Assembly (NCBI GenBank): GCA_903919975.1 | Contig: CAIXKE010000038.1 | Coordinates: 1 to 64,000, forward strand | Reading direction: 5' to 3' | DNA from: Akkermansiaceae bacterium | Lineage (GTDB): Bacteria; Verrucomicrobiota; Verrucomicrobiia; Verrucomicrobiales; Akkermansiaceae | DNA length: 64,000 bases | Part shown: one piece after another, positions 22,199-61,253 of the stretch | How positions within the stretch are numbered: the first letter of the stretch is position 1 | Layout: each line of letters starts with the position of its first letter | Notes under the pieces: generated by a model | Told to the model about the DNA's origin: nothing | What the model saw: only the letters and a program-made list of their open reading frames with translations | Database searches by the model: none | Position numbers and translations under genes: made by a program

Positions 22199-22199
22199 G

Positions 22200-23030: not shown

Positions 23031-23049
23031 TTCAAAATTCATCATTTCC

Positions 23050-24978: not shown

Positions 24979-25005
24979 AGACACACCTTGGACATGTCCT
25001 TGGAC

Positions 25006-25165: not shown

Positions 25166-25186
25166 GGTTCACAACACCCATCTCCG

Positions 25187-28100: not shown

Positions 28101-28219
28101 GTGAAATCGAAAAATCCAAGATCGCCTGCGCGCGGAAGTTCTTCGCGAAAATCACGAACGAGCAGGTCCGCTACGAGGTGGTGGATGGATACGGGAAGCT
28201 GATGGAGCTGGTGAAATGA
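25187..28219 (+). CDS. Type III-like restriction endonuclease (Res)
   Basis: 1010 residues. Superfamily 2 translocase motifs are Walker [16 protein letters not shown] near 104, the type III-typical DEPQ box ([10 protein letters not shown]) near 226, YSATH near 253, and motifs [23 protein letters not shown] and [14 protein letters not shown] near 530-565. The C-terminal nuclease has a PD-(D/E)xK pattern, NPDWAI followed by IAETKGD, at about 943-965. Res and Mod together cut unmodified foreign DNA after ATP-driven communication between sites. The start at 25187 follows element copy 4. Confidence 0.88.
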
Positions 28220-43754: not shown

Positions 43755-44351
43755 ATGACACCACCCCGCCCGACCCAACTTGCGCAGATTCTCCTTCGGA
43801 ATTCGATTCACGAGGGCGACATCGTCATCGACAGCACTGCAGGAAATGGCCATGATACGGTGTTTCTAGCAGAATGCGTGGGCTTGAATGGCAGGGTGCT
43901 GGCGTTCGACATTCAGGAGTCGGCTATTCGCTCTGCAAAGGCTGCGGTGATCGCCGCCAATTTGGGCGACCGTGTGGAATTTCATCAACTCAGCCATGCC
44001 AAAATGGCGGAGCACGCGGAGCACGGTTCGGTGGCGGCGATCATGTTCAACCTCGGCTACCTGCCGGGGAACGATCATCATTTCACGACACAGACGGAAG
44101 AAACCCTCACGGCCATGGCTGTCGCCACCGATTTATTGAAACCCGGGGGAATACTCTCCGTGGTTTGCTATCCTGGCCATCCGGAAGGCGCGGTGGAAGC
44201 GGAGTTGGTGGAGGTATGGATGAGTTCGCTCACAAGCGACGGCTGGTGCGTCGCAAAATACGCAATGCTCGGCACGCGAAAGCCTGCTCCATTTCTACTC
44301 ATGGGCCGGAAGGACGGACTGAAGTCCGGGACTACTTCTTATTCGCCTTAA
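43755..44351 (+). CDS. SAM-dependent RNA methyltransferase, MnmM/YtqB-like
   Basis: 198 residues. The AdoMet-binding DSTAGNGHDTVFLAECVG near 26 and the family-typical MFNLGYLPGNDHHFTT near 97 (FNLGYLPG) place it in the YtqB (MraW_2) group, whose Bacillus member MnmM methylates the wobble uridine of tRNA. Its 3' end overlaps the converging coxB gene by 20 bases. The upstream 290 bases hold no gene. Confidence 0.75.
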   Translation: MTPPRPTQLAQILLRNSIHEGDIVIDSTAGNGHDTVFLAECVGLNGRVLAFDIQESAIRSAKAAVIAANLGDRVEFHQLSHAKMAEHAEHGSVAAIMFNLGYLPGNDHHFTTQTEETLTAMAVATDLLKPGGILSVVCYPGHPEGAVEAELVEVWMSSLTSDGWCVAKYAMLGTRKPAPFLLMGRKDGLKSGTTSYSP

Positions 44352-45096
44352 GAGCCGCTTCGGATTGGCCCTTGAACCACGAATCGTATTCATCGGCAGC
44401 CACGACTTCCATGCTGCCAACCATGTTGGCATGGCCTTCGCCGCAGAGTTGTCCGCAAACTACGAAGGTCTCAAGCGTCTCGATCGGAGTGAACCACATC
44501 GGGATCTCACGGCCCGGAATGGCGTCCTGCTGGATGCGCATCGGAACGATCGAATAATTATGGATCACATCCTTGGTGCCGATATTGAGCACCGCTGGCA
44601 CGCTCACCGGCAGCTTCAGAATCGGGCTGGTGAAGTCATCCAAAGCATTGGGGTCCTGGTAATCAATTCCGAGATCGTTCGAACCGGAAATCAGGGCCGG
44701 GTCCACGCGGCCGAATTTTCCATCGGCACCAGCGTAATGATAAGTCCAACCGAACTGCCAGCCCACCACGCGCACGCGGACGGGGTTCAAATCCTGGACT
44801 TGCTTCCAGCTATCGACACGGTCTGCCCAGAGAGGAAAGGCGAAACCCAACAACAGAACCGCCTCGACGATGATCACGCCGACCTCCAAGTGGCTGGACA
44901 AGTGGCTCTTCACCCCGGTGTAGGACGCCTTCGGGTTTCTTTTGTGCCAGAAGCGGAAAATACAATAGAGAAAAAACAGCGTCCACCCGACAAACAAGGC
45001 GATCATGAACCAATGAACCACATCAATCATGTGATCCACTTGGCCACCATGGGCGGAGAAGTTTTTTGGAATACCCAGAAATTTGGAAGGACTCAT
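44332..45096 (-). CDS. coxB: Cytochrome c oxidase subunit II
   Basis: 254 residues with two N-terminal membrane helices (about 25-50 and 70-92) and a CuA cupredoxin domain. CuA ligands are His in KDVIHNYSI and CGQLCGEGHANM (Cys-x3-Cys-x3-His-x2-Met), with Gln where many homologues have Glu. No haem c motif follows, so the oxidase is aa3 rather than caa3 and needs a separate cytochrome c. It is the last gene of the minus-strand respiratory cluster. Confidence 0.92.
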   Translation of the reverse strand: MSPSKFLGIPKNFSAHGGQVDHMIDVVHWFMIALFVGWTLFFLYCIFRFWHKRNPKASYTGVKSHLSSHLEVGVIIVEAVLLLGFAFPLWADRVDSWKQVQDLNPVRVRVVGWQFGWTYHYAGADGKFGRVDPALISGSNDLGIDYQDPNALDDFTSPILKLPVSVPAVLNIGTKDVIHNYSIVPMRIQQDAIPGREIPMWFTPIETLETFVVCGQLCGEGHANMVGSMEVVAADEYDSWFKGQSEAALKANKK

Positions 45097-45180: not shown

Positions 45181-45393
45181 TCAAGAATCGGTCGAAACGT
45201 AGTCATCGGAAAGGGTTGGATCGAAGTGCTCTTTTTCGCGGCGGGCGATGCGGAACATGAAAAAAGCAATCCCGCCGAGCATCGAGAGAATAACGACTAG
45301 CAGGAAGAAGATCGACCAACCGGCCGCGTCACCTCCACCCTCGACCATGGAGACACGGCAGGTGGAGCAGGCGATAGTTTGCAGCAAAATCAT
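45181..45393 (-). CDS. Small membrane protein of the oxidase cluster
   Basis: 70 residues from the ATG at 45393 (MILLQTIACSTCRVSMVEGG). One strongly hydrophobic helix spans about 28-50 and a charged tail follows. A Cys-Ser-Thr-Cys motif precedes the helix. Position between oxidase genes suggests an assembly or structural role. No family recognised. Confidence 0.55.
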   Translation of the reverse strand: MILLQTIACSTCRVSMVEGGGDAAGWSIFFLLVVILSMLGGIAFFMFRIARREKEHFDPTLSDDYVSTDS

Positions 45394-45406
45394 CGGAATA
45401 TGGTTT

Positions 45407-45607
45407 TCAAATGTGAATCTGGCGGGCCTTGCGCAAGAAATAGACGCCGTAAGCCAGCATGAGGACAATCCCCGCGATGCCTACGTAACCAAGCGCGTTG
45501 AAAATGCCGGAGTTTTCCGGCGAGAATACAAACGACCAAACCGCAAGGAATGAAAAGAGCAGTGTGCTTACGGTTACGAAGACGAGATGGAAGCTCTTGA
45601 GTGACAT
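45407..45607 (-). CDS. Small two-helix membrane protein of the oxidase cluster
   Basis: 66 residues with two hydrophobic helices (about 7-28 and 37-57) and a basic C-terminus. It lies in the same operon order between subunit IV and the one-helix protein. Small accessory subunits of haem-copper oxidases look like this, but no family is recognised. Confidence 0.6.
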   Translation of the reverse strand: MSLKSFHLVFVTVSTLLFSFLAVWSFVFSPENSGIFNALGYVGIAGIVLMLAYGVYFLRKARQIHI

Positions 45608-45631: not shown

Positions 45632-46012
45632 TCAACGAAGGGTCGGAGAAGCCAGAAACGGCTCGGTCTTTGATTCCTGCCCGTAAAAAAGCGGGTCGAA
45701 AATCGGGTCTTTCTTGGCCAAAGCGGTGAGAAGATACAACGCCGCCACGAAAACGCCACCGGCACCGAAGATCCAGTAAATCGCCTTCTTCTCATGGTTG
45801 AGGTGCATGAAGATGGCGGCTACCAACGTGGCCTTGGTCGTGGCGATGAGTAGGCCGAGCACGCAGTCCGCCGCATCAAAACCATGACCGCCCACATCGA
45901 GGGCGGGCACAGTGGCAACGAGCACGGTAGCGATGGTGCCCGCGAACAGCACAAGGCCGATCAGGCCATAGAGGCGGAGCGATTTGCGGATTGCTTCAGG
46001 AGTATCTGCCAT
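45632..46012 (-). CDS. coxD: Cytochrome c oxidase subunit IV-like
   Basis: 126 residues with three membrane helices (about 13-34, 46-70, 80-100). The second contains TTKATLVAAIFMHLNHEKKA, the motif typical of prokaryotic subunit IV (KA-x-LV-x-x-FMHL). It follows subunit III in the transcript. Confidence 0.8.
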   Translation of the reverse strand: MADTPEAIRKSLRLYGLIGLVLFAGTIATVLVATVPALDVGGHGFDAADCVLGLLIATTKATLVAAIFMHLNHEKKAIYWIFGAGGVFVAALYLLTALAKKDPIFDPLFYGQESKTEPFLASPTLR

Positions 46013-46048: not shown

Positions 46049-47662
46049 TTACATCAGGTAGAAAATCGGAAAGGCGAAGATCCAGACCAAGTCCACGAAG
46101 TGCCAGAACAGACCGCCGATCTCGACCCGGTTGGCGAGCCATTCAGGGTTGGTGTCATACATTTTCCGGCCGAAGAAGAGATAGTAGCACAGCACCAGCG
46201 CACCGCCAATCACGTGCAAGCCGTGGAGACCGGTAATGGTGAAATAAATCGCGTAGTAGGTGTTCCACGCCGGAGTGAATTTTGAGGCGAATCGGATCTG
46301 CTCGCGCGGCAATTCCAGGTGCGGGAAAGTGTGCTTGGCCTCGCGCCCGTGGTAATCCGGGCCCATGAATTCTTCCTTGATGGCAATCTCCTCCCGGTCG
46401 CGATCCACCTCATCGGCCATAGCGACGAATTCCTTCCAACCAATGCGATAACGCTCCTTGGCGGTGGGCTCGTATTTGGCTTTGCCGGTCTTTTCATCGA
46501 CACCGTGACGCTCCAGAAGCTCCTTCTCGATCTTGGCAACCTGACCCTTGTTCCATTCCCACGCATCTTTGGCAAAGGGATGATTCTTGATCAACCACGA
46601 GTTTTCGACGGCCACCATCGGGTCTTGGCCCTTTTCGACCGCCTTCATCGCCAGATGGCGGAAGTCGATGGCATCCACGTAGTGCAAACCCATCGGACTG
46701 GCGAGCATCTTGCCATCCACCAAAGTATCATCACGCAGGCGGGACTGAGTGGCGCCTTCCTGAATGTCCCTTGGCTTGAAATCGAACATCGCCGGTGGGT
46801 CAACCTTAAACGCGACTGTTCCAATTTCAGTTAGAACATGCGGAGCGATGGTGTCGGCATCGATGTTGACGCCGGAAGAAACCTCCCAACCGCGCTTTCC
46901 CGGGTTGTTCTTCTTTGCCTCTACCCACTCCTTGCGGAGTTCGGCGGTGCGGACGGCACCATTGTGGGAGCGGGCGTCAAGATGAGACTCCTGCAAGCGG
47001 GACAGAAGTTCAACGGAAAGAGGCTCTCCGGCTTTGGCTAGGGTTTCAGCGGGCTTGCCTTCATCGGTGATGGCGGACACATCGGCCGCCAGAACGATCT
47101 TGGATTTCCGGTGCTCGGCCTGGCTGAGGAGCTCCTCCACCCATGGCTTATGAAAACGCACGATGTTGAATGTCAGGCCGGAAGTTTCCACTTGGATCTG
47201 GTTCTCCTCGATCTTCTGGCCATGATGATTCAGAACCTCCTTTCCGTCTTCCATTTCGTAACCAAGATGCCCTTCGATGACCGTGTAATCATTGAGGCGC
47301 ACTGCTTGGTGATGGAACTTCACGTTGTATTCGAGTCCCTTGAGCACCATGAAGATCGCGGCGCAGGCGATCGTAATCCCCATGAAGAATTGGAATTTCC
47401 GCCATTGGCGCATTTTCAACGATGCCCAAGCGAAGACCACCGTCACGGATGAACCGATTAGAATAAACGTGTTGATCAAACCGGGCAGCACCGGAAGTGT
47501 CCGCTCGGGCCACGGGTAATCCGCGCCGAGGCGGAGAAACACGTAGGCCGAGAAAAATCCGCCGAAGAGCATGACCTCGGAAGCGAGGAACAGCCAGATC
47601 GCGATCTTCGAGTTGAAGAGGCCGGTGTCCTTCCGGGGAGTGACGATATAAGGAATTTCCAT
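46049..47662 (-). CDS. coxC: Cytochrome c oxidase subunit III with a ~345-residue insertion
   Basis: 537 residues against about 190-280 for the family. Residues 1-117 give the first helices with KGLEY near 108-112. From about 463 the remaining helices resume (NTYYAIYFTITGLHGLHVIG, EIGGLFWHFVDLVWIFAFPI). Between them, residues about 118-462 are soluble, charged, mostly helical, without CxxCH or other cofactor motifs. The frame is continuous. It is likely a lineage-specific extramembrane domain between helices 3 and 4. Confidence 0.88.
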   Translation of the reverse strand: MEIPYIVTPRKDTGLFNSKIAIWLFLASEVMLFGGFFSAYVFLRLGADYPWPERTLPVLPGLINTFILIGSSVTVVFAWASLKMRQWRKFQFFMGITIACAAIFMVLKGLEYNVKFHHQAVRLNDYTVIEGHLGYEMEDGKEVLNHHGQKIEENQIQVETSGLTFNIVRFHKPWVEELLSQAEHRKSKIVLAADVSAITDEGKPAETLAKAGEPLSVELLSRLQESHLDARSHNGAVRTAELRKEWVEAKKNNPGKRGWEVSSGVNIDADTIAPHVLTEIGTVAFKVDPPAMFDFKPRDIQEGATQSRLRDDTLVDGKMLASPMGLHYVDAIDFRHLAMKAVEKGQDPMVAVENSWLIKNHPFAKDAWEWNKGQVAKIEKELLERHGVDEKTGKAKYEPTAKERYRIGWKEFVAMADEVDRDREEIAIKEEFMGPDYHGREAKHTFPHLELPREQIRFASKFTPAWNTYYAIYFTITGLHGLHVIGGALVLCYYLFFGRKMYDTNPEWLANRVEIGGLFWHFVDLVWIFAFPIFYLM

Positions 47663-47717: not shown

Positions 47718-49583
47718 TCAGTGCTTGGTATTAGGCTTTTTAGGTTCCTCCCACTGCGGAATGAAATCCTCCTCATGGTCCGGGCGGCTGTATTCGTAGG
47801 GACCACGGTAAACAGCAGGATCGAATGTGAAATTGCCATGTCCCGGAGGCGTCGGCGTCGCCCACTCGAGTGTGGTGGCATTCCAGGGATTGTCGCTTTC
47901 GACTTTTTTCCCGGTTTTCCATGAGATGAACAAGTTGATGATGAAGGGAATCTGAGCAAGCGCCAATGTCCATGCTCCCATGGACATGATGATGTTCATA
48001 TCAATATGGGTGGCCACGGTGTTGCCGAAAACATTCACGCTGTCGGCCGCCTTCGAGAGATAGGCGTCGCCACCATTATACCAGCGGCGGTGGAAACCGG
48101 CCATGCCTTGCAGGAGCATCGGGAAGAAAATCAGGTTCATGCAGATCAAGCTCGGCCAGAAGTGCAGGTGATTGAGCGTCGGACTCATGAAGCGGCCCGT
48201 GATCTTCGGATACCAATGAAGGACACCGGCGAAGAAGCCGAAGAGAATGCCGGGTGCCACGACGTAGTGGAAGTGACCGATCACGTAATAGGTATCGTGC
48301 AGGTGAAGATCCGCGAGGTTGAAGGCGAGCGGCAGTCCCGTTAGACCGCCGATACCGAACATCGGGATGAACGCGCAGGCCCAGAGCATTGGTGGCGTGA
48401 AGCGGATGGAGCCGCCCCAGAGCGAGATCAACATCGAGGTGATGATGACCACCGATGGCACCGAGATGAGAACGGTCGTCGTTTGGAAGAAAGTGGAAAC
48501 GGCAGCTCCCATGCCGGTCATATACATGTGGTGGGCCCAGACGATGAAGGAGAGGAAACCGAGCACGAGGACCGAATAGACCATCGACTTATAACCCCAC
48601 AGTGGCTTGCGGGTATTGGCCGGAATGATTTCCGAAACGCAGGCGAAGGCGGGAAGCAGAAGCACATAGACCTCCGGGTGACCGAGGAACCAGAACAAGT
48701 GCTGGAACAACAAAGGTGAACCACCGCCCGAGAGATCGGCGAGTCCCTCGCTCTTGGTAAACAAACCGGAAGGCATGAAGAACGATGAATGTACCACGCG
48801 ATCCATCAACTGCATGATGCCTGCTGCTTCCAGAGGAGGGAAGGCCAACAAGAGAAGGAACGCGGTGACCAGCATCGACCACACAAAAAATGGCATGCGC
48901 ATCCAAGTCATGCCACGGGCGCGCAGGTTGATGATGGTGGTGATGAAATTCACCGAGCCCAACAGCGACGAGGTAATCAAACACACCAACCCGATCAACC
49001 ACTGCGTCTGGCCGGCGAGCCATTGGTTCACCACTTGGCCATCGGCGAATCCGGCGAGCGGCGAATAATTGGTCCAACCGGACTTGGCGGCGCCTGACTC
49101 CAAGAAGAACGAACCACACATGATGAGACCACCCAGAAGATAGACCCAGTAGCTTGCCATGTTAAGCTTGGGGAAGGCCATGTCCGGCGCGCCAATCTGG
49201 AGCGGCGTGACGTAGTTTCCAAATGCGCCGAATCCCAACGGCACAATGCCCAGGAACACCATGATGGTGCCGTGCATGGCACCGAACATGTTATAAGTTT
49301 CGCCCGTCACCTTGCCGTCCTGCAGCCAGCGGGCTTTCCAGCCGTCGGTGAAAATCCAACTCATCCATTCCGGCAATGGTTGGTGGGGATATGCGATACT
49401 CCAGCGCATCACCATCATCAGGTAAAATCCAAAGGCCAGAAAGCACATCGCCGTGATGCCATACTGGAGACCAATCATCTTGTGATCCGTGGAAAACACG
49501 TATTTCTGGATGAATCCAGGATTGTGATGATGGTCGTCGTGGTGGGCATCGTGCCCGGTGTGTGTGGTGGCGTGAGAGCTCAT
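47718..49583 (-). CDS. ctaD: Cytochrome c oxidase subunit I (aa3-type, A family)
   Basis: 621 residues and 12 helices. Metal ligands and channel residues are intact: haem a His in MFGAMHGTIMVFLG, the CuB site with GHPEVYVLLLPAF and VWAHHMYMTGM, and both haem ligands in IGHFHYVVAPG. The Glu of GHPEV marks an A1-type proton channel. The N-terminus is His-rich (11 His in the first 20), which could bind metal. This is the catalytic subunit, so the CcoN-like gene in the same cluster is not needed for oxygen reduction. Confidence 0.95.
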   Translation of the reverse strand: MSSHATTHTGHDAHHDDHHHNPGFIQKYVFSTDHKMIGLQYGITAMCFLAFGFYLMMVMRWSIAYPHQPLPEWMSWIFTDGWKARWLQDGKVTGETYNMFGAMHGTIMVFLGIVPLGFGAFGNYVTPLQIGAPDMAFPKLNMASYWVYLLGGLIMCGSFFLESGAAKSGWTNYSPLAGFADGQVVNQWLAGQTQWLIGLVCLITSSLLGSVNFITTIINLRARGMTWMRMPFFVWSMLVTAFLLLLAFPPLEAAGIMQLMDRVVHSSFFMPSGLFTKSEGLADLSGGGSPLLFQHLFWFLGHPEVYVLLLPAFACVSEIIPANTRKPLWGYKSMVYSVLVLGFLSFIVWAHHMYMTGMGAAVSTFFQTTTVLISVPSVVIITSMLISLWGGSIRFTPPMLWACAFIPMFGIGGLTGLPLAFNLADLHLHDTYYVIGHFHYVVAPGILFGFFAGVLHWYPKITGRFMSPTLNHLHFWPSLICMNLIFFPMLLQGMAGFHRRWYNGGDAYLSKAADSVNVFGNTVATHIDMNIIMSMGAWTLALAQIPFIINLFISWKTGKKVESDNPWNATTLEWATPTPPGHGNFTFDPAVYRGPYEYSRPDHEEDFIPQWEEPKKPNTKH

Positions 49584-49782: not shown

Positions 49783-50574
49783 TCAGGGAGTTACTTTGGG
49801 GGCAGCTACCGGTGCGGCGATGGGAGCCAGACTGATGGGATCGACCATGGCTTTCGGATCGAGTGGCTCGCCGGGCAGCGCCTTGAGGTGATCGGCTTCG
49901 AGTTCCGCAGCGGTGAGTTGCAAGCCCTTGTTGGCGCGGGCGTCGGAAATTTCCATCGCTGCTTTGGCCATTTCCACCGTGATGACATCGCCGGTGCTAT
50001 TACCGAAATTATTCCGGACGAAAGTCATAATGCCCGCGAGGTCGGCGGGCGAGAGGCCGGCACCTTGAGCGGCCATGCCTGCCCCATAGCTTTTTCCGGT
50101 GCTGATCGGACCTTGCAGGCCATTGAGAATGATCATGGCGAAACGGTCGGTTTCTCCGAGCACCCATTTAGATCCGACGAGCGACGGGAAATTCGCGCCA
50201 TCGCCCTTGGCATCCGGGCCATGGCAACCATTGCACTTGGCGGAGTATATCTTGGAGCCTTTCGCCATGTATGCAGCGAGCGCTTCCTTGGGCTGCGGCC
50301 CGGACTCCGCCGTGCCGGGGGCGGGCGTGCGGACATAGCCTTCGCGGAAGGACGAGCCGTAGGAAAACAATTTGCCCGCGCCACCTAGAATGCCGCCAGC
50401 GATGATCGCGACGACGCCGCAAGCGGCGAGAATCCAGAGGTTGATCGGCTCGGAGCCATTATCGGCGATCCGTTTTTCACGGGCGGCGGCGGCGGCCTCG
50501 AGAATCACGCGGCCATGGGCCTCGGTCACATTGATCGAGTCCTCAAGGTCAGGTTGATGATTGGGAGAAGACAT
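49783..50574 (-). CDS. Membrane-anchored monohaem cytochrome c
   Basis: 263 residues. One membrane helix (about 48-70) is followed by a single cytochrome c domain, CNGCHG near 116 with a distal Met candidate in GAGMAAQG. The start at 50574 (MSSPNHQ) was chosen over an 11-codon extension. It lies directly after the CcoO-like gene in the transcript, where a CcoP subunit would be, but has one haem rather than two. Confidence 0.8.
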   Translation of the reverse strand: MSSPNHQPDLEDSINVTEAHGRVILEAAAAAREKRIADNGSEPINLWILAACGVVAIIAGGILGGAGKLFSYGSSFREGYVRTPAPGTAESGPQPKEALAAYMAKGSKIYSAKCNGCHGPDAKGDGANFPSLVGSKWVLGETDRFAMIILNGLQGPISTGKSYGAGMAAQGAGLSPADLAGIMTFVRNNFGNSTGDVITVEMAKAAMEISDARANKGLQLTAAELEADHLKALPGEPLDPKAMVDPISLAPIAAPVAAPKVTP

Positions 50575-50603
50575 GGTGGAAATTGGATGGGGTGGGGAAA
50601 AAT

Positions 50604-51311
50604 TCAATTCTCGGCGTCCTTTTTCGCCGGAGCGAAATTCAGCGCGGCCGGAGCCTTTTGGTCCTTTTTGAGGGACAGGAGATAGGAAACCAAGGCACGG
50701 GCGTCGGAATTGGGAATCAACTCATGGTTTTCTCCGGCATCCACCTTGATCGCATCGGCGGAAGGGCTGCCCTTGATTTCACGCTTCTCGAACAGAAACG
50801 GATGTGGCGGGCAATTGGATCTCCACAATTTCGGATTGTTGCGGGGATTGTAGAGACGCTCATACAACCAAGCGGCAGGATCGCCACCGGCGGCATATTC
50901 GGTTTCCACGCGGCGGCCGAGGTTCGACAGATCCGGGCCGAAACGCATCACCCCTATCTGGGCGAATTTCTCGCCGAAGAAATCGTAGGCATTCGTTTCG
51001 CGGCGGGTATCACCGCGGTCGGCATCCGACTTCAGGCCACCCCAGTTAGGCCGATACAGATCATTGCCGGCATAGGTCGGGCGCACCACTTGCGTGTGGC
51101 ACTGATAGCAACCGTTTTCAGCATAAACCAAAGCACCATCGGCAATCCGGCCGGTACGTTTCGGATAGAAAAAACCCTTAGCGCCATCCTTCGCTTCGGA
51201 GAGAGCGATCGGGGCGAGATTGCGCATTTTGAAATACGGGACCACGACGACCGTCAGCCATGCGATGCCGAAACTGGCGGAAAGACCGAGAATGAAAGTG
51301 CGGAGGCTCAT
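50604..51311 (-). CDS. CcoO/FixO-like monohaem cytochrome c
   Basis: 235 residues. An N-terminal helix (about 7-27) precedes a CcoO domain with YAENGCYQCHTQVVRPTYAG near 65 and the family-typical GPDLSNLGRRVE near 126. In cbb3 oxidases CcoO passes electrons to CcoN. Here its membrane partner lacks the catalytic metal ligands, so its electrons may instead go to the aa3 oxidase. Confidence 0.85.
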   Translation of the reverse strand: MSLRTFILGLSASFGIAWLTVVVVPYFKMRNLAPIALSEAKDGAKGFFYPKRTGRIADGALVYAENGCYQCHTQVVRPTYAGNDLYRPNWGGLKSDADRGDTRRETNAYDFFGEKFAQIGVMRFGPDLSNLGRRVETEYAAGGDPAAWLYERLYNPRNNPKLWRSNCPPHPFLFEKREIKGSPSADAIKVDAGENHELIPNSDARALVSYLLSLKKDQKAPAALNFAPAKKDAEN

Positions 51312-51356: not shown

Positions 51357-52865
51357 TCAGTGGGCGGCGGCGTGGCCGGGGCCCGCATTGTCGATATCTC
51401 CCTCTTCACCATGCGGGCTGCTGCCGTGGGCATCATGAGAGGAAACCAAAAGTGTCGGGTGCAAACTGCGGCGGCCGAGGCGCATCCACATCAGCGCGAG
51501 GTGAAGGAAGAAGAAGACATTCGAGAAAAGAATCAAACTCCAAGAAAATGTCGACGCCACGGCATAGGGAATGGCGCGCGAAGCGGCATCTTCCCACGGC
51601 TGCTGCCAATCCTCTTGGCCAGCACCTTGCAAAAGCCCCCCGAACAACGCGATCAAGGCGACGAATACAACGCCATAAGCCGAGAATAGAAAATGCATTT
51701 TAATCAACCTGCGGGAAAGCCATTCACGGCGTGTCACGCGGGGCACGATGAAATACGTCGCGCCAAACATCACCAGAGTGAAGAATCCATAAATCGCGAG
51801 CACGTCGAAGCCGTATCCCGAGAGCGAGAATTGGGTCATCTTCAGGGTGGAGCCCGGCAGGTTCAGGAGCACTGCGGCGACCGCGAGCACGGCCAGTCCG
51901 ATGATGCCGGCCATGGTGAAACGCAGCGATGGGCTTTCCGCCAAAGTTTTTGGACAAGAGAGCATTGTCCGGATGAGATTGAACCCGGCCGCACATGCCG
52001 GAATGAATAGCAACGCGGTGGCGGCAGCTCCGAGATATGGCAGGAAAAATGGGATTGGAGCGCCTGCGAGTTTCTGCATACCCGCCCATGGCGCGATGAT
52101 CGCCAACGACCAGAAACCCAGTTTTGCCAGTGAATAACTGAAAACCGGACGGCCGGTCACTTTAGGAGCCAGATAATAGGCGGCACCCAAGGCCACCGGC
52201 GTGAAGAACAGGAAAATCATCGCGGATTTGAACCATGCGTTGATCCCTGCGGCCATGACCGGATGACCGGGCATGCAATGCAGCAGCGTGTTCGCGGTGA
52301 TGAAAACCCACGGAAACCAGATCATCGCGGCGAGGATATACCATTGCGAGATAAAGACATGGCCCTCAGGACGCACACGGAATTGAATGAACGACCAAAT
52401 CAGAATCGCGCAGTAGCTGACCAAGAGGACTGGCCAAGCGAATGCGGGAAACTCCATCCATGGCATGCCGGTGCCATATCCTGCGAGAATCCCCACCACG
52501 CCGAGACCCACACCGAGATTCCAGACATGTCCGGCAGCGAGGATGGTGCCGACGGCGTTGCATTCCTTGCGGGAAAGCCGCGCCATCAGCCAGATAATCA
52601 CGGCAAATGCGGCCTGCATTCCCCAGCCGTAGACCAAGGCATTCATGTGCGCGGGGAAAGCCCGGCCGTAGGTGAGCCATGCGCAATCCGCTAAAAATCC
52701 CGGGTTGTGCACTTTCGCCGAAGCGATTACGCCCAGCAAAATCGATACAGCAAGCCATGCCGCGCCGCTGGTTAGGAAAAACATCACCGGATGGCGCAGC
52801 GAGCGATCAATGCTCGCACGGAGCAAGGCATCCTGATCGGTAGTGGTGGTGGAGTCGGAAGACAT
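51357..52865 (-). CDS. CcoN-like protein lacking CuB and high-spin haem ligands
   Basis: 502 residues and about 12 helices, clearly homologous to cbb3 subunit I (GRPVFSYSLAKLGFWSL; FFTLVMFGATYFIVPRVTRR). Aligned by eye to Pseudomonas CcoN, only the helix-2 haem His is kept (His73 in AFPAHMNALVYGWG). The CuB ligands are replaced: WYGHN becomes WFKSA (Ser214) and GPHHL becomes GMQKL (Gln264, Lys265). The helix-10 haem pair H-x-H becomes Phe353 and Val355. It therefore cannot be a normal oxygen-reducing centre. It is encoded with CcoO-like and two cytochromes c between ACIII and the aa3 oxidase. Confidence 0.85.
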   Translation of the reverse strand: MSSDSTTTTDQDALLRASIDRSLRHPVMFFLTSGAAWLAVSILLGVIASAKVHNPGFLADCAWLTYGRAFPAHMNALVYGWGMQAAFAVIIWLMARLSRKECNAVGTILAAGHVWNLGVGLGVVGILAGYGTGMPWMEFPAFAWPVLLVSYCAILIWSFIQFRVRPEGHVFISQWYILAAMIWFPWVFITANTLLHCMPGHPVMAAGINAWFKSAMIFLFFTPVALGAAYYLAPKVTGRPVFSYSLAKLGFWSLAIIAPWAGMQKLAGAPIPFFLPYLGAAATALLFIPACAAGFNLIRTMLSCPKTLAESPSLRFTMAGIIGLAVLAVAAVLLNLPGSTLKMTQFSLSGYGFDVLAIYGFFTLVMFGATYFIVPRVTRREWLSRRLIKMHFLFSAYGVVFVALIALFGGLLQGAGQEDWQQPWEDAASRAIPYAVASTFSWSLILFSNVFFFLHLALMWMRLGRRSLHPTLLVSSHDAHGSSPHGEEGDIDNAGPGHAAAH

Positions 52866-52893: not shown

Positions 52894-53649
52894 TCAGGGT
52901 TGCGTGAGATCCTGAACGGTGAGCGGCGGTTTGCCCACTTCACTGCGCAGAGCGGCGACTTGTGCGGGCGTCACAGCGGATGCCTTGTTGCCAAAGCTAT
53001 TGCGGACATAAGTGAGGACACCGGCGATCTGCTCATCCGTCTGATAGGCCATCTGCGTCATACCGGCGGCGAAGTTGTATTCTTTTCCAGAAACAGTGAT
53101 CGGACCCTGAAGACCGCGCAGCTGAATGCGAATCAGGTTGGAAACCGGGCCGTCCACCCAGTTTGAACCTGCGAGCGGCGGAGCGATCAGTCCTCCCTCA
53201 CCATTCTGGCCATGGCACGCGGCGCAAACCATGAACTGGACCTTGCCGATCGCCATCACCGCAGGATCGATCGGACTGGCTTCAGCGGGGGCCGCATCAA
53301 TCGCAGCCGTATTCACCGGAGGCGCGGCCGCGATTTTCTCCGCTGTCGGCGATCCGGGAATCACCTGCTCGGGTTTCTCGACTGCGGTTGGCTTGCTCGA
53401 TGCGAGCTTTGTAGCCACTGTCGGGATGGCAGCGGTGACCGCCTCTTTCTTGAGTGAAGCGGCTTGAGCAACCTCAATCTTAGCCTTGGTTTCATAGCGG
53501 GCTTTAGCGACCGCATCTTCAAGGGTTTCGGGCTTGGTGCGGTTGAACAGCGCGATCACCGCAAGCAGCACGGCGAAAATGAAGAAGGCACCAAGGCCCC
53601 ACCAGAATGTGGTGAAGCGGATGATCGAGTTGTCGCGATTGGGGTCCAT
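52894..53649 (-). CDS. Membrane-anchored monohaem cytochrome c
   Basis: 251 residues. A membrane helix (about 15-34) is followed by an Ala/Pro/Lys-rich linker (about 45-130) and a cytochrome c domain with CAACHGQNGEG near 147. It shares its C-terminal layout (GLQGPI, then LTYVRNSFGN) with the cytochrome at 49783, so the two probably arose by duplication. It lies between ActF and the CcoN-like gene, a good position for an electron carrier out of ACIII. Confidence 0.82.
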   Translation of the reverse strand: MDPNRDNSIIRFTTFWWGLGAFFIFAVLLAVIALFNRTKPETLEDAVAKARYETKAKIEVAQAASLKKEAVTAAIPTVATKLASSKPTAVEKPEQVIPGSPTAEKIAAAPPVNTAAIDAAPAEASPIDPAVMAIGKVQFMVCAACHGQNGEGGLIAPPLAGSNWVDGPVSNLIRIQLRGLQGPITVSGKEYNFAAGMTQMAYQTDEQIAGVLTYVRNSFGNKASAVTPAQVAALRSEVGKPPLTVQDLTQP

Positions 53650-53666: not shown

Positions 53667-54998
53667 TCAGTTGGAAAGATTGGCGGACTCAAGGATGCGC
53701 GGATCCCGGTTCGGATAGAGCGAGTGCTGGCCGATGGCGCGCAGAAGGAAAAACAGGAATGCCGCACCGATGGTGATAAAGGCGAGGATGTCACCCAAGA
53801 ACGCGCCGGAAATGGCAACTTGGATCGGACCCAGACCAGCGAAAGCATCTCCCTGACTCATGTGCGTGCCACCCAGCGAAACACCTCGCTCTGGGATGGT
53901 GATCAGATAGTGATCCAGCGCATGCATGCAGAGCGTGTAAACTGCCATGATCGAAAGCGTCTTCGGGTTTCTCTTCAACCAAGCTTGCAGCAGGATGACG
54001 AATGGCACGACGAAGTGGCCGAAGACCAAGGCGATCATTCCGATGTTCCAATTACCGGTATTGCGGATCAGGAAATACGAGGTTTCCTCGGTGATACCGG
54101 CATACCAAATCAAGAAATACTGCGAGAAAGCGATGTAGGCCCAGAAGGTGGTGAAGGCGAAGAGCAGCTTGCCCATGATATGGAAATGCTCAGGACCGGT
54201 GACATTCTTGAGGTGGCCTTGGCTCTTCAACCAAGCACACACGAGGATGATGACCGCCATCGAGTTGAGCGCGGAACCGGCGAACAAATAAACACCCCAC
54301 ATCGTGGAGAACCACTTGTAGTCGAGAGCCATCATGAAATCGAAGCCCGTGAAGGTGATCGTCAGCGCGAAAATAATCAGCGTGTAGGTCGAGTGAAAAC
54401 GGGCTTGGAACAGGCGCTTGGTGCCGGGATTCGCATCGGTATCTTGCGCGATCGAAAGCTTGCGCAGGAAAATGATCACACAGCTCAATCCAACACCCCA
54501 GAAGATCACGCGACCATACCAGAACGGCAAGTTCATGAACCAATGCTTGTTATAGAGCAGGTGATCGACGTGATGCAGGTGCTCTTTCACATCGCCGCCA
54601 TGCGCGCCGCGATGGATGTTCATCCATTCATACAGGTATTGTTGAACCTGCGGGCAGAGCAGCGGGAGACCGAAGAGAAACATCCATGGATAGGTCGAAC
54701 CGAGGTTTTCAAAGGTCCGGCGGACGGATGTCCCCCAGCCCGAGTTCGAGACGTTGTGAAGCAAGGTCCAGAAACAACCGCCGATCGACAGAGTCAGGAA
54801 GAAGTAAAACGCGAACAACCAGGAGTATGCGTAGCTTCCCTTGGTAGCGTTCGAGGCGAAGAAGAGCAGATAGAAGCTGAAAACAGTGCCGAGGACAGCA
54901 ATGGCCATGGCGATGTTTTTCGCCTTGGCAACCTTCGAGTTGTCAAGGTGATCGCCATTGATGGCGATGTCTGCAGAAGTGACGTGGTGGTGAGCCAT
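53667..54998 (-). CDS. actF: Alternative complex III subunit ActF (NrfD-like)
   Basis: 443 residues with about 10 membrane helices, a second NrfD/PsrC-like subunit as in known ACIII. Conserved blocks include GGCFWTLLHNVSNSGWGTSV near 75 and MNIHRGAHG near 128. In ACIII structures the ActC/ActF pair spans the membrane, and ActC holds the main quinol site. It starts just after ActE. Confidence 0.88.
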   Translation of the reverse strand: MAHHHVTSADIAINGDHLDNSKVAKAKNIAMAIAVLGTVFSFYLLFFASNATKGSYAYSWLFAFYFFLTLSIGGCFWTLLHNVSNSGWGTSVRRTFENLGSTYPWMFLFGLPLLCPQVQQYLYEWMNIHRGAHGGDVKEHLHHVDHLLYNKHWFMNLPFWYGRVIFWGVGLSCVIIFLRKLSIAQDTDANPGTKRLFQARFHSTYTLIIFALTITFTGFDFMMALDYKWFSTMWGVYLFAGSALNSMAVIILVCAWLKSQGHLKNVTGPEHFHIMGKLLFAFTTFWAYIAFSQYFLIWYAGITEETSYFLIRNTGNWNIGMIALVFGHFVVPFVILLQAWLKRNPKTLSIMAVYTLCMHALDHYLITIPERGVSLGGTHMSQGDAFAGLGPIQVAISGAFLGDILAFITIGAAFLFFLLRAIGQHSLYPNRDPRILESANLSN

Positions 54999-55022: not shown

Positions 55023-55661
55023 TTAAGGATTCGCCTTGGCGGCTTGCAAGGTGCGGACGTAAGCGACGATGGCCCAACGGTCCCTGACGGGAATGTTGTA
55101 GCCATATCCGCTCATCAATCCCTTGCCGTTGGTGATGGTATTGAAGAGACGTCCGTCGGGATAGGTTTCCGAGGCGAATGTCGGTTGCTGCAAGTTGGCG
55201 ATACCGGGGACTCCGTATTGGCTGGTGATGCCCAGACCATCGCCCGAAGCACCGTGACAAACCGCGCAATAGATGCCGAATCGCTCGGCACCGCGGCGGA
55301 TCAATTCTTCCGCCGTCTCGTTGGTGAGGTTCAACTCTTCGGGCATGCCGGCACCGAAGTAATCGCCCACATGGCCGGTGTAATAATACCCGGTTTGGCC
55401 GCCGAATTCATATTCGGGGATGCCTCCGATGACTTTTTCGCCTTCCGCATTGAATCCGCGTGGCTGGGTTTGCGTGATGGGAAGGCGGCTGCCATGACCA
55501 TCGGCAAAAAACGAATCCGGCTTCTGGGCGCGGACTTTGTCCTGCTCGTCCATGTCCGGGAATATCCGGACGGGAGGCTTGGCGAACTTCTGGCCGCGCA
55601 GGCCGAAGATGCCGACGACGAGCAACGCGATGAGTGCGTAGATGAGGAAAAAGTAGCGCAT
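55023..55661 (-). CDS. actE: Alternative complex III monohaem cytochrome subunit ActE
   Basis: 212 residues. A short N-terminal hydrophobic segment (about 3-22) and one haem site, FGIYCAVCHGASGDGLGITS near 130, followed by a typical cytochrome c C-terminus with GYGYNIPVRDRWAIVAYVRT. It transfers electrons out of the ACIII core. Confidence 0.88.
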   Translation of the reverse strand: MRYFFLIYALIALLVVGIFGLRGQKFAKPPVRIFPDMDEQDKVRAQKPDSFFADGHGSRLPITQTQPRGFNAEGEKVIGGIPEYEFGGQTGYYYTGHVGDYFGAGMPEELNLTNETAEELIRRGAERFGIYCAVCHGASGDGLGITSQYGVPGIANLQQPTFASETYPDGRLFNTITNGKGLMSGYGYNIPVRDRWAIVAYVRTLQAAKANP

Positions 55662-55726: not shown

Positions 55727-56284
55727 TCAAGAGTCTTCTTCTTCGACGAGTTCGATGTTGGCACCGCCGATTTCCGCGAGGAGTTCTTTGGTTTGGTTCG
55801 GGCTGAACTTGCTATCGCGGGCCTCGATGGCGATGAAAAATCCATCATCGGTGGCGCGATGGAACTGGCGGCTGGCAAAGAGCGGGTGGTTCAGGCGCGG
55901 AAGTTGAATCAAGGCCAACAATCCAAACAATACCGTGAAGCCTGAGAATAAAATCGTCAGCTCGAACATGATCGGGAAAAACGCCGGAATCGTAAAGATA
56001 TTCGCGGGCTTCGCTTGGACGATGGTTGGATAGATCACCACTTGCGTCGTGTAGGCAAGGGCAAAGGCGGTGGCACAGCCAGTCATGCCGCCGAAGAATA
56101 CGAACCATGGAAGGATCGAGCGCTTCATTCCCATTGCTCCATCAAGGCCGTGGATCGGATAGGGAGAATAGCAGTCCCATTTCTTGAAACCGGCGTCGCG
56201 GATTTTCTCGGCAGCCTTGTAGAGGGCGGAGGCGCTCTTGAACTCGGCAAGGTAGCCGTAAACGCGTTTGCGGGTGGTGCTCAC
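55727..56284 (-). CDS. actD: Alternative complex III subunit ActD (DUF3341)
   Basis: 185 residues. An N-terminal cytoplasmic segment with YLAEFKSASALYKAAEKIRD and KWDCYSPYPIHGLDGAMGMK, then two membrane helices (about 57-80, 97-120) and a C-terminal domain with ATDDGFFIAIEA. This is the DUF3341 subunit of ACIII. Confidence 0.88.
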   Translation of the reverse strand: MSTTRKRVYGYLAEFKSASALYKAAEKIRDAGFKKWDCYSPYPIHGLDGAMGMKRSILPWFVFFGGMTGCATAFALAYTTQVVIYPTIVQAKPANIFTIPAFFPIMFELTILFSGFTVLFGLLALIQLPRLNHPLFASRQFHRATDDGFFIAIEARDSKFSPNQTKELLAEIGGANIELVEEEDS

Positions 56285-56315: not shown

Positions 56316-57794
56316 TTATTTAGAGGAATCCACAAGTTCCTTCTGATAGGCGGCTTCGACCACGGTGCCGTGGTCCGGGTGGTGTTCCTTGTCGTCGAAG
56401 TGTGGATCGGCCTCGAGTTTCGTCCATTTCACTTCGGCGATGTTGATGCAGGGAAGGAAACGGAGGAACAGCATGAAGAGCGCGAGGAACATGCCGATGG
56501 TTCCAACAAAGAGCATTTGGTCCTGGCCGGTGGGCGAGAAGGTTTTCCAATCACCTGGCAGCCACATGCGGGCGAGTGTGGTGACGATGATGACGAAGCG
56601 TTCGAACCACATGCCGACGTTCACGCACATCGCCACGATCATGACGACCCATAGATTTTCGCGACAACTCTTGAACCAGAACACCTGCGGGGAAAGCACG
56701 TTGAGCGACATCATCGCCGTGTAGGCCCACCAATAAGGACCGGCGATGCGGAACTTGAAGGCGTCCATCTCGTAAATCGCGCCGGAGTAGAAGGCGACGA
56801 ACAACTCCATCAGGTAGGCATATCCCACGATCGTGCCGGTAAGCAGGATGATCTTGGACATGTTGTCGATGTGCTTCATCGTAATCAGATCCTGCAGGCC
56901 GTAAACGAAACGGGCGGGAATCATGATCGTAAGCACCATCGCAAAGCCGCCGAAAATCGCGCCGGCGACGAAGTAGGGAGGAAAAATCGTGGTGTGCCAA
57001 CCGGGGACGACCGAGGTGGCGAAGTCGAAGGACACGACCGAGTGCACCGAGAGCACCAGCGGGGTGGAGAGCGCAGCCAAGAGAAGATATGCCATTTCAT
57101 AGTGGCTCCACTGGCGGTTGCCGCCGCGCCAACCGAGCGAGAAGATTCCGTAGAGGACTTTGCGCAGGCCTGGCTTGCAGCGGTCGCGGATGGTTGCGAG
57201 GTCGGGCACCATTCCGAGGAACCAGAAAATCAGCGAGATCGTGAAGTAAGTGGAAACTGCGAAGACGTCCCACAGCAACGGCGACTTGAAGTTCTGCCAG
57301 ATGCCATTCGCATTCGGCACGGGTGCGAGGAACCAGGCGAACCAGACGCGGCCGACGTGGAAGGCCGGGAAAATGCCGGCGCACATCACCGCGAAGATCG
57401 TCATTGCTTCGGCGGCGCGGTTGATCGAAGTCCGCCAGTTTTGCCGTGTTAGGAAAAGGATCGCGGAGATGAGTGTTCCGGCGTGGCCGATACCGATCCA
57501 GAACACGAAGTTCACGATCGGCCATCCCCACATCACGCGGTTGGTGTTTCCCCAAACGCCGACGCCGGTGGAAACGAGGTGGAACAAACCGCCGCCGACA
57601 CCGATCATGGCGATCAGCGCGGAAGGGATGAAGAGCAACCACCAGAGTAGCGGTTGCTTGTTTTCAACGACGCCGCAAATGCGCTCGGTGATCCAGTGAT
57701 AGGAGCGCCCTTGAAGGATGAGCTTTTCACGCTCGAGCACCGGGAGTTTGACTCCCGTGTGGGTCTCCGGCGCGGTGTGAGTGGTGGATGCCAT
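56316..57794 (-). CDS. actC: Alternative complex III quinol-binding subunit ActC (NrfD)
   Basis: 492 residues with about 10 membrane helices of the NrfD/PsrC type. Conserved blocks include [20 protein letters not shown] near 100 and [15 protein letters not shown] near 150, which line the menaquinol site. The start at 57794 ([14 protein letters not shown]) removes a 128-codon upstream frame. It follows actB after 43 bases. Confidence 0.9.
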
Positions 57795-57837: not shown

Positions 57838-60800
57838 TCAGACCATGTGGATGGTGGCCTTGCCGATGAATGGTGCGTCGGGCATGTCGGGATTCGGGTT
57901 CTTGACGCGGGCCAGATAACTGGTGCGCGGGCGGGTGCCGATGTAGTTAAGCAGGTCGTAATTGCGCTCGATGTGCTTGCTGCGACCGAGGGCGGACTTC
58001 TCTTCGTCGAGAAGATTGCCGAAGGTAATGGCATCGGCCGGGCAGGCTTCCTGACAGGCGACTTTGACTGAATCCACCGGGATGCGGAGCGTCTGGGTCG
58101 TGACTTCCATCTCGGTGGATGGTTTGCCGGCGACGAGCACCTCTTGCTTTTGGCCGCGCTTCTGGCGGATGACGGCATCCTTGAGGCGCTGGACGCAGTA
58201 GGTGCATTTTTCCATCACGCCGCGCATGCGGACGGTGACGTTCGGGTTCTTCTGAAGATGATCCGGATCGCCGACCGATTTTTCGCCGAGCGGACCTTTG
58301 TAGAGGTTGTGGGCGATAAGCGGGTTGCGCTTGTTGTAATCGAAGAAGTTGAAACGGCGAGCCTTGTAGGGGCAGTTGTTCGCGCAATAGCGGGTGCCGA
58401 TGCAGCGGTTGTAGGCCATGGCGTTGAGGCCGTCTTCGGTGTGCACCGTGGCGTTCACCGGGCAAACCGTTTCGCAAGGTGCGGATTCGCAATGCACGCA
58501 GGCAACCGGTTGCGGAACCATCGCCGGATTATCGGAGTCGAACGTGTTATCCTTCTGCGTGGCGTAATAACGATCCATGCGGATCCAATGCATTTCGCGG
58601 CCTTTGGCAACTTGTTCCTTACCGACGATCGGAATGTTGTTTTCCGCTTGGCAGGCGACCATACATGCGGTGCAACCCATACATGAGGAAAGGTCGATCG
58701 ACATGCCCCACTGGTGGAGCGGATCGTTGATGAGCGGTTGAGCCTTGCCGTCCTTGCCGGGATCCCACGTGGCGGAGGTTTCCGGTTTGTAGAGATAGAC
58801 ATTCGGCGGTGCGTGGGAGTCGTTGCCTTGTTTGGCGACGTTCGCGAGCTGCTTTTTGAAATCGCCCTTTTCGTCGAGATCGGACTTGATGGTGGAAATT
58901 TCGCGGGCAAGCGCACGACCATACATCGCGCTGTGTTCCTGCGTGAGGGCGAGCAGGTAAGTCTTGCCCTTGATGAGTGAAACCGTGGCACCGCTGGCGA
59001 AGTATGCGGTGGCGGCGGTGCGGAGTGGATAGGCGTTGAAGCCGCGGTTCACACCGACAAGACCGACGTGAGATTGATTGGCTGGGGTGCGGCCGAGTTC
59101 ATCGTCCTTATCGAAGGCTTGGCCGTAGCCGAGCGGGATGACGAGAGTGTTTTCAGCTTGGCCGAAAGAAATGACGACCGGGATTTCAAGAGTCTCGCCG
59201 TTGATCGTGACGGTGATCATCCGCTGCTTGCGGTTCTCACCCTCGCCATCGGGACCAACCTTGCCATACTTACCTTCCAACCCGAGCACGCTGCTGACGG
59301 GTTCGGTTTCGACGACTTCATCGTAAATCCCGAGTGCCTTCGCGGTTTTCGGCGCGATTAGTGCGGCGTTGTCCCAAGTGATTTTTGAAATCGGATCGGG
59401 AGCTTCCTGGAGCCAGGCGTTGTCGATCCATCGGCCGTCATAGACCGAGGCATCGGTGGCGAAAATCACTTCAAGCGCATTGGCGGTCGGCGCGTTGACC
59501 GGAGCGATCGTGATCTCACGCGACGATGGCGTGGCGGCCGGATAGTTAGAACCTGCAAGGAAACCATCACGGAGAAGTTTTTTCCATGGCACATCCCCTT
59601 CCCCACCGAGGGCGACGAAGGTTTTACGAACAGCCGTATAGGCGGGCGATGGCGCGCCTTTTTCGCCTTCGCCATTCAGCAACTTGCCATCGTTTGAGAG
59701 CAGTGCGAGCAACAGCTCGAATTCGGAAACGCAATCCTGATAGAGCGGCAGAATCATCGGCTGCACCACGGTGTAGGCGCCGCGAGCAGTGCGGGCGTCC
59801 GACCACGATTCGAGGTAGTGCGCGGCTGGGATATGCCAAGTGGAGGCGTGGGCGGTGGCATCCGTGCGATCGCTGAGATGAATGCTGGTTTTCAACTTCG
59901 CAAAGGACTCCGCGAATTTGAGATCGGCGGGCGCATCGTAGATTGGATTGGACGGCGTGAGCACGACCAAGGTTTCAACGGCAATGGAGTCGATGTCCGC
60001 CTTGAGAGTGGCGAGCGAGCCGAGGCCGACGACTTCGGATTGCAGGACGAGTAGCGGTTTGCCTTCGCCGATGTTGCCGAGCGCCTGATTGATGGCGAGG
60101 GCGAGTTGTTGGACAGCGGCCGATTGGCGGGAACCCGCGAGCACCACGGATTTACCGGCATTTGCCTTGAGATCGACAGCCATCGCCTTGATCCACTCGA
60201 GGTGCTTGGCGTCGGTGATTGCAGAGGATCCAGCCACGGCCACGCCCAGTTCGCGGGCCAGTTGTGCGGCGACTGCGGCCACTTGGCTTGGCGAGATGCG
60301 CAGGCGGTGATCCGCCATGCCGCCGGTGAGCGAAAACGCCGCTTCCACGGTGTAGAGGCGATTCATTTTCGAAGCATCCGGCTTGGCCGCGTAGGCTTTG
60401 CCTTCGGGCTTCCGGCGGTCGAAAAACGGAGTGACTGGGCCTTGCGGATCGGTTCCGGCGAAGTCGCAATCGAGCGATAGAATCCGGTCTGCCTTGGAGA
60501 AATCCGCGACCAATTTCACGCCATCGCCGATGGCCGATTCTGCGGTGAGTGCCTCGTATTGATAAAATTTTGCGGCGGAAAACTTCGCGGCGAGCTCCTG
60601 GGTCAGGCGCTTGCGGGTCGGGCTGTCATCCGCGCCGAACAGGAAACCAATTTTCGCTGACTTATCGGCGGCGAGTGCGGCGATGGCGGCGTTGAGGTCG
60701 GCGCGTTTGGCGGGCTTGGCCGCGTTGAGCACCTTGCGTGAACGCGAGGGTGAGTAGAGATCAAGCACCGAGGCTTGGGCGAAAGCGTCCGTGCCGCTGG

Positions 60801-61209
60801 CGTCCGGGTGAAGGTGGTTGGGAGCCAGCTTGGTCGGGCGGCCTTCGAAGGTGGTCACCACCAGCGGCGTCGCACCGTGGGCGCGCGGCATGGCGGAGGC
60901 GTAATAAGTCGCCTTACCCGGGATGACCCACTCGGGGGCCTTGGTGTAGGGAACGATGTAGCTTTCCGGGCGGCGGCAGGCAGCCATGCCGAATCCGGCC
61001 AGCGCGGTGGAGGCTCCCATGAGCTTCATGAACGAGCGGCGGGATGTTTCCAGATCGGCCTCGTCGGCCATTTCGGCGGCTCCTTGCGGAAACTCACGGT
61101 CAAGCCACTCGCGGAAGGCGGGTGTGTCTTGAAGCTGGCCCGCACTGCGCCAGGCGACGGTGGTTTCGTCGGCGGGAACTTCGGGATGTTGCCAAATGCG
61201 CTTGCTCAT
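57838..61209 (-). CDS. actB: Alternative complex III iron-sulfur subunit ActB (MoCo-like plus Fe-S)
   Basis: 1123 residues from ATG 61209. A Tat-like [10 protein letters not shown] (56-65) precedes a lipobox-like Cys at about 78. The N-terminal about 750 residues have the molybdopterin-oxidoreductase-like fold that in ACIII lacks cofactor. The C-terminal region (about 840-1080) is an NrfC/PsrB-type ferredoxin with four cysteine clusters: [45 protein letters not shown] and CTYC with [10 protein letters not shown]. It passes electrons along the periplasmic face of ACIII. Confidence 0.92.
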
Positions 61210-61253
61210 GTTTGACTGCGGAAATTTAGGAAATGAAAAAACGGGTGGAGGAA

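Follow-up and report, generated by a model that had tools for sequence, protein, structure and literature searches.

A CcoN-like protein without oxygen-reducing ligands, probably kept as a membrane scaffold, between the alternative complex III and aa3 oxidase genes of an Akkermansiaceae bacterium

A membrane-bound cytochrome c joins complexes III and IV in the actinobacterial III2IV2 supercomplex, and we know of no catalytically dead oxidase subunit either there or in the bc1-cbb3-cy supercomplex of Rhodobacter. More generally, to our knowledge no catalytically dead haem-copper oxidase subunit I has been recognised as a conserved respiratory component. According to passages of PMC8361435, a membrane-bound cytochrome c also connects complexes III and IV in Rhodobacter bc1-cbb3-cy, and in Flavobacterium johnsoniae alternative complex III (ACIII) is contacted via oxidase subunit III. 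For verrucomicrobial methanotrophs, the available parts of PMC6688271 and PMC8498564 describe a cbb3 oxidase adjoining ACIII, which the former ties to high oxygen affinity, and the cbb3 type is listed among the oxidases of these organisms in a section of PMC10205796.

We analysed a stretch of 64,000 nucleotides (the window) from an Akkermansiaceae bacterium (contig CAIXKE010000038.1), in which ACIII is encoded together with an aa3-type oxidase, as in the ACIII-aa3 supercomplex of F. johnsoniae. Unlike in F. johnsoniae, however, the two gene sets are separated by a pseudo-oxidase module with cytochromes of its own, and subunit III carries a long insert in the window's order. The module would share with Rhodobacter bc1-cbb3-cy, as far as the passages cited above describe it, a membrane-bound cytochrome c linking complexes III and IV. 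It resembles CcoNOP of cbb3 oxidases in the CcoN fold and in the succession of a CcoN-like gene (NL), a CcoO-like gene (OL) and a c-type cytochrome gene (cytY), but it lacks CuB, haem b3, the low-spin pair and the active-site tyrosine, and OL has a cysteine in place of the methionine. CcoP is dihaem, whereas each cytochrome of the window's module carries one CxxCH.

On the minus strand the genes run ActA-ActB-ActC-ActD-ActE-ActF-cytX-NL-OL-cytY-CtaD-CtaE-CtaF-small protein-CtaC (Table 1). The preliminary description of this DNA had placed NL between ACIII and aa3 genes and had flanked it with a CcoO-like gene bearing a haem motif and two monohaem cytochromes; we find the same arrangement, with ActA-F upstream, CtaD-CtaC downstream, and the oxidase ligand and CuA motifs present. 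The window's aa3 genes look functional, judging from the histidine motifs of CtaD and the CuA motif of CtaC. No Pfam family was reported for ActF, which we name by its position in the ACIII gene order. The soluble insert of CtaE comprises about 340 residues after the third helix, and CtaE is 448-589 aa long in the window's order compared with 196-326 aa in the other CtaE-bearing loci. The small protein between CtaF and CtaC is also present in related loci of the window's order and has no Pfam family. The only other COX1-family match in the window's genome is a genuine fused cbb3 oxidase (TIGR00780, 623 bits). Elsewhere in the window, at 18692-28219 on the plus strand, genes for helicase-like, DNA methylase, and ResIII-type plus endonuclease domain proteins stand in a row resembling a type III restriction-modification system.

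Table 1. Genes of the ACIII-NL-aa3 cluster of the window, in minus-strand order
Gene	Position	Strand	Product	Basis or remark
ActA	61254..61952	-	pentahaem cytochrome, 5 CxxCH	
ActB	57838..61275	-	Fe-S and molybdopterin-oxidoreductase-like subunit	listed start TTG, internal ATG after
ActC	56316..57794	-	NrfD-type membrane subunit	Pfam NrfD 83.5 bits; start set at internal ATG, open frame extends to 58178
ActD	55727..56284	-	ActD	Pfam ActD 207.1 bits
ActE	55023..55661	-	monohaem cytochrome c, CxxCH at 132	
ActF	53667..54998	-	ActF of alternative complex III	position and conservation in cluster
cytX	52894..53649	-	additional monohaem cytochrome c encoded between ActF and NL, CxxCH at 142	
NL	51357..52865	-	pseudo-oxidase subunit I resembling CcoN (502 aa; about 12 membrane helices predicted)	frame, Pfam, PDB, alignment, AlphaFold2
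OL	50604..51311	-	CcoO/FixO-like membrane-anchored monohaem cytochrome c, 235 aa, CxxCH 68-72	Pfam FixO 31.5 bits
cytY	49783..50607	-	monohaem cytochrome c, CxxCH 125-129, conserved Met178	
CtaD	47718..49583	-	aa3 oxidase subunit I, ligand motifs HPEVY, HHM, GHFHY	
CtaE	46049..47662	-	aa3 subunit III with soluble insert	
CtaF	45632..46012	-	subunit IV-like	COX4_pro match
small protein	45181..45468	-	short conserved protein, gene located between CtaF and CtaC	start uncertain
CtaC	44332..45096	-	subunit II, CuA motif CGQLCGEGHANM, no fused cytochrome c	

The plus strand at the NL locus is interrupted by stop codons, and the intact frame that had been claimed for the gene is an open frame of 502 residues on the minus strand. 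NL belongs to the COX1 family (Pfam 145.8 bits; cut-off 34.8) and its nearest PDB match is CcoN; it scores 101.9 bits with the NCBIfam ccoN model TIGR00780, under the cut-off of 583.15. The AlphaFold2 model, computed from an alignment of 57 sequences, has about 12 long helices (mean pLDDT 82.5, pTM 0.86), and its pLDDT falls around residues 261-280, adjoining the former CuB site. Superposition of the model on five solved CcoN chains with VIA gave Z values of 42.5-44.3 over 444-449 residues at 2.5-2.8 A.

Ligand columns were read from an alignment to Pseudomonas CcoN (3mk7) and relatives, with the metal-ligand and active-site roles assigned to CcoN residues H60, H207, Y251, H257, H258, H345 and H347. 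The haem histidine of helix 2 is kept (H60 = NL H73). The three CuB histidines are replaced by S214 (H207), Q264 (H257) and K265 (H258), the proximal histidine of haem b3 by F353 (H345), and the low-spin haem b histidine of helix 10 by V355 (H347), leaving the bis-His pair broken. The active-site tyrosine of helix 7 is also lost (Y251 = A258), and E323 corresponds to A330. The preliminary description had named exactly these five ligand replacements, with His73 as the sole one kept. A misalignment hiding other histidines seems unlikely, as two alignments gave equal columns for every shared row and the fold agrees. The haem b3 and FeB histidines that define NorB fall on the identical columns, which are empty of histidine in NL. 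NL is thus predicted, from alignment and model, to retain the CcoN fold without CuB, without haem b3 and with one ligand of the low-spin haem missing. Its derivation from a cbb3 (C-family) oxidase, proposed in the preliminary description, agrees with the alignment, the trees and its place in the cluster, and the further proposal that it is not a second oxidase also stands, since the residues needed for one are lost in the alignment.

Relatives of NL are common in the window's class. Ninety of 288 phylum genomes have a match to the protein with an E value of 1e-10 or lower; 65 of those are in the class, each with an NL-type gene, and the 25 matches outside it are weaker, all nine that were looked at grouping with the outgroup. 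A sample of the class itself gave matches in 301 of 384 genomes, genuine cbb3 being counted among them. A scan of genome contigs yielded 362 confirmed relatives, the best 80 of which all have Verrucomicrobiota titles (among them Luteolibacter, Haloferula, Roseibacillus, Rubritalea and uncultured Akkermansiaceae). Five of these 80 loci were sequences already in the set, leaving 75 distinct relatives. The helix-2 histidine is present in 75/75 of them and neither helix-10 histidine in any (0/75); the CuB columns hold Ser in 54, Gln in 69 and Lys in 65, with histidine at column 207 in one, at 257 in six and at 258 in none. Among 14 close pairs of the window's family, one with saturated dS being left out, dN/dS of NL is 0.027-0.12 in 12 of the 13 computable pairs and 0.265 in the other, and the ligand-less copies of this family are under strong purifying selection. 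Twenty listed small genomes of the same family (G005 and 19 others of group g2, probably Akkermansia) gave no NL match at 1e-10; several environmental MAG records titled Akkermansia muciniphila (L108-L110, L138, L145) carry NL and are perhaps misnamed.

As a gene cluster, the arrangement ActABCDEF-(CcoN-like)-(CcoO-like)-cytochrome c recurs in the class. ActF was found in the examined stretch at 56/56 phylum loci and 36/40 hand-picked loci, the four without it being intact copies, and the order OL-cytY-CtaD occurs at 63 of the 80 best related loci out of 362, the other 17 being cut short or different. OL shows the membrane-anchored monohaem fold with CxxCH that characterises CcoO, according to its Pfam FixO match, its AlphaFold2 model and VIA, in which the best matches were CcoO chains (Z 9.2-9.6); Foldseek returned no significant match for this model (best E 0.59). 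The CxxCH of OL is kept at all 56 loci with 20-kb neighbourhoods (36 ligand-less and 20 intact, nine of the 65 phylum rows being without a 20-kb stretch) and at 40/40 further loci. OL can be aligned with CcoO across the segment that contains the distal haem ligand. At this distal position, where CcoO has a methionine that we take to be the axial haem ligand, OL has Cys167, as do 78/78 OL proteins of the window's family. Methionine occupies this position in genuine cbb3 (4/4) and at intact loci (20/20 and 22/22); the 54 ligand-less loci have Met in 42, Cys in six, which all belong to the window's family, and one of His, Arg, Lys and Ser in the remaining six. The preliminary description of OL as CcoO-like with its haem motif is therefore right as regards CxxCH and has to be corrected for the usual distal methionine, which is absent.

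The cytochrome 3' of OL has CxxCH and Met178 at 54/54 loci where it was found, and was undetected at two of the 56, both intact. In cytY and 76 close relatives, Cys125, His129 and Met178 are invariant (77/77). Open frames labelled cytX in related loci from the best 80 of 362 are without CxxCH in 13 of 63 cases. As far as the residues indicate, the ligand-less clusters have given up the oxygen chemistry and preserved both the membrane protein and the haem c wiring.

The survey of Verrucomicrobiota ACIII clusters suggested in the preliminary description shows the same kind of ligand loss in many of them: 62 of 105 NL copies are without the full set and 43 have all six histidines and the tyrosine, a ratio that is no census because the 105 copies combine 65 from the phylum sample with 40 hand-picked loci, mostly one or few per family, from the 150 best matches of the class search. 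The phylum sample alone has 21 intact and 44 ligand-less copies. Most of the ligand-less ones (49/62) miss five or six of the six ligands. At the other end, a single CuB histidine separates L226 from the intact state, and five copies (L020, L023 and L208-L210) have lost the catalytic site and kept both low-spin haem b histidines. In families f1 and f2 of the window's order, 16/16 rows keep only the helix-2 histidine of the low-spin pair; of L204-L206, from three more families of this order, two are without it. L207 keeps the helix-2 histidine and has a tyrosine at position 347 itself (HNSQRVYY), a second possible His/Tyr pair.

All 15 outgroup rows, comprising genuine cbb3 and other C-family genes, are intact, and the change is therefore read as loss. 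Three changes are needed on each of the trees, i.e. a careful 90-row tree with the ligand columns removed beforehand, a quick 81-row tree with nine long rows left out, and a quick 120-row tree. In the 90-row tree the ligand-less rows fall into two large clades, of 35 and 18 rows, with L072 apart from them; in the 120-row tree they form a single clade of 60, apart from L072 and L226. Since long branches were flagged in both of these trees, we claim, beyond the main loss, no more than that L072 lost its ligands separately and that L226 changed in a single ligand. L072 is nested among intact copies with support of 97/85 (90-row tree) and 91 (120-row tree). An AU test on the 90-row tree rejects one clade of all 54 ligand-less rows (p 4.7e-5), although L072 by itself may account for this rejection. 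From these trees, ligand loss appears to be mostly old, with at least one separate event.

Two genomes that are 98-99% complete (G001 and G146) have an intact NL copy as their sole COX1-family match, and no cytochrome bd gene was found in either, which implies that the ancestor was probably a real oxidase. The intact ACIII-linked cousins are likewise probably real oxidases. Two intact copies score 250-254 bits with the ccoN model, under the cut-off, and the Glu of CcoN position 323 is absent in 42/43 intact rows; the intact copies therefore form a separate branch of the C family. A different C-family subunit I with an OL-like neighbour is encoded at L049-L058 (453-461 aa; 546 and 618 aa in two). 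It has every ligand and a Gln at position 323, and is possibly eNOR-like; in the part of PMC8756737 available, eNOR is marked by an active-site Gln.

The preliminary description had suggested a linker between ACIII and the aa3 oxidase. CtaD lies in the examined stretch at 27/54 ligand-less versus 5/42 intact loci (Fisher p 8e-5), where the length of the stretch beside NL varies among loci and some stretches end at the contig end; counted by independent pairs, of which there are three only, the excess is not significant. The 27 of 54 ligand-less loci in whose stretch no CtaD was found argue against aa3 linkage as a general role. CtaC encoded in the cluster is without CxxCH (17/17, 51/51 and 15/15), whereas among stand-alone oxidases of the class a fused cytochrome c is seen in five of the seven genomes where CtaC was found; the stand-alone oxidase of two ligand-less genomes, G013 and G166, has none. 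The absence of a cytochrome c from the cluster oxidases is in keeping with cytY or OL being required as donor.

We consider it reasonably probable that NL is a dead ACIII-linked C-family subunit I that has been retained to scaffold c-type haems in the membrane; we infer both the scaffold and the relay roles of the module. As a non-catalytic scaffold in the membrane, NL would hold the OL and cytY haems beside ACIII. Electrons from menaquinol would leave ActA/ActE via cytY, and perhaps OL, for CuA of the neighbouring aa3 oxidase, which in the window has no cytochrome c domain of its own and would accept them at that site. Lineages in which no aa3 gene adjoins the cluster would use the same module to supply an oxidase encoded at another locus. 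For the window's family, cytY with its His and Met is more likely the relay than OL. His/Cys haems have low potentials, and Cys167 therefore argues against OL as an ordinary high-potential relay; the exchange of Met for Cys changes what a relay through OL could be in this family.

NL might still hold one haem b, ligated by His73 and Tyr351 or five-coordinate, and serve as an electron, proton or quinol module instead of a bare scaffold. We regard this as unlikely. Tyr351 sits one turn before the lost helix-10 histidine, and it is present in 91/91 rows of the window's group, which was chosen by retaining H60. A tyrosine at the equivalent CcoN position 343 occurs in 16/16 f1/f2 rows and 0/43 intact rows, and these 16 account for most of the 19 rows in which H60 is kept and H347 lost; with the helix-2 histidine retained in those 16 rows and in all 75 distinct relatives from the best 80 of 362, and with both low-spin histidines kept in a related group, a remaining haem would be understandable. 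However, L204-L206 are without the tyrosine, and two of the three without the helix-2 histidine as well. The surroundings of the site have also changed: position H337 is His in 21/21 intact rows and Gln in 91/91 rows of the window's group, R57 is Arg in 21/21 intact rows and replaced in at least 86 of the 91, and many other ligand-less rows have lost both low-spin histidines. A bolder possibility for the window's lineage, which we hold to be improbable, is a terminal oxidase turned electron-coupling hub, in which a haem b in the His73/Tyr351 pocket and the His/Cys haem of OL would wire ACIII to aa3.

The retention of NL in the cluster without catalytic residues, and the Gln (69/75) and Lys (65/75) that stand for the CuB histidine pair in the relatives from the best 80 of 362, could also be expected of an assembly or maturation factor for ACIII or aa3, delivering haem or copper for example, that is not a stable subunit. 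This seems doubtful, because the cytochrome partners keep haem motifs that an assembly factor would not need, and intact cousins occupy the same slot. Cys167, present in 78/78 OL proteins of the window's family where 42/42 intact loci have Met, might instead point to a redox or gas sensor or switch formed by NL and OL through the His/Cys c-type haem; no signalling domain was found among the scanned cluster proteins, and the cysteine occurs at only six of 54 ligand-less loci while the ligand loss of NL is far wider, so that we give this little credence. An oxidase or NO reductase with unusual ligands, to which the full fold would be suited, is very improbable given that 0/62 ligand-less rows have all three CuB histidines and only 4/62 the b3 histidine. 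Finally, loss of catalytic ligands is what a decaying pseudogene or a sequencing artefact might display, yet the frames are open, dN/dS is low in 12 of the 13 pairs of the window's family (0.027-0.12), and relatives extend across the class (301/384 genomes, genuine cbb3 included). Purifying selection and residue conservation contradict this explanation, to which we assign almost no probability. Among these possibilities, the non-catalytic scaffold is the reading that we retain.

The ligand-less state bears directly on the verrucomicrobial methanotrophs. Methane monooxygenase genes were found in 5/5 genomes of one group (f4) and in 0/4 others tested, and the five are probably Methylacidiphilaceae. 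Each has a single NL match at 1e-10 or better, a ligand-less copy, besides two aa3-like COX1-family genes, another one or two that encode 563-568 aa, and a single one encoding 465-534 aa. Three of the last set we take to be NorB by their motifs; NCBIfam named none of these three candidates NorB and gave one a weak ccoN match (37.7 bits). From what the papers describe, the genes of 563-568 aa are ba3-like. One of the five genomes, G072, has nosZ in its ACIII cluster, with nosZ and nosD standing 5' of ActE/ActF (L048:13193-17433, minus strand); nosZ in the ACIII cluster is reported for Methylacidiphilum caldifontis IT6 in the available part of PMC11102522.

As far as the accessible portions of the papers go, the ACIII-adjacent 'cbb3' of methanotrophs and a C-type oxidase of Opitutaceae have the gene position of NL and probably belong to one family with it. 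The papers treat the methanotroph protein as an oxidase, whereas the five pmo-bearing genomes have it in ligand-less form only; the reported 'cbb3 oxidase' beside ACIII is therefore probably no oxidase. The preliminary description had suggested that such a linker might be undescribed, and this agrees with our search of open PMC full text, of which the parts retrieved held no description of ligand loss in ACIII-linked CcoN, nor of any other catalytically dead haem-copper oxidase subunit I retained in respiration. The main text of PMC12283558, on the essential genome of Verrucomicrobium spinosum, contains none of six respiratory terms, and the portion of PMC2474590 available has no mention of the NL gene.

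If the five genomes are what they seem, the gene adjacent to ACIII cannot encode an oxygen reductase in these organisms, and published models of the respiratory chain of verrucomicrobial methanotrophs are probably corrected in this respect. Annotations that name a ligand-less NL an oxygen-reducing enzyme are probably wrong, and it would also be wrong, if the ligand loss holds, to deduce microaerobic respiration from the presence of such a gene. Nature provides in this family a gradation from intact oxidase, via copies with low-spin haem b ligands only, to copies with no haem ligands, which lets one ask what CcoN does besides reducing O2.
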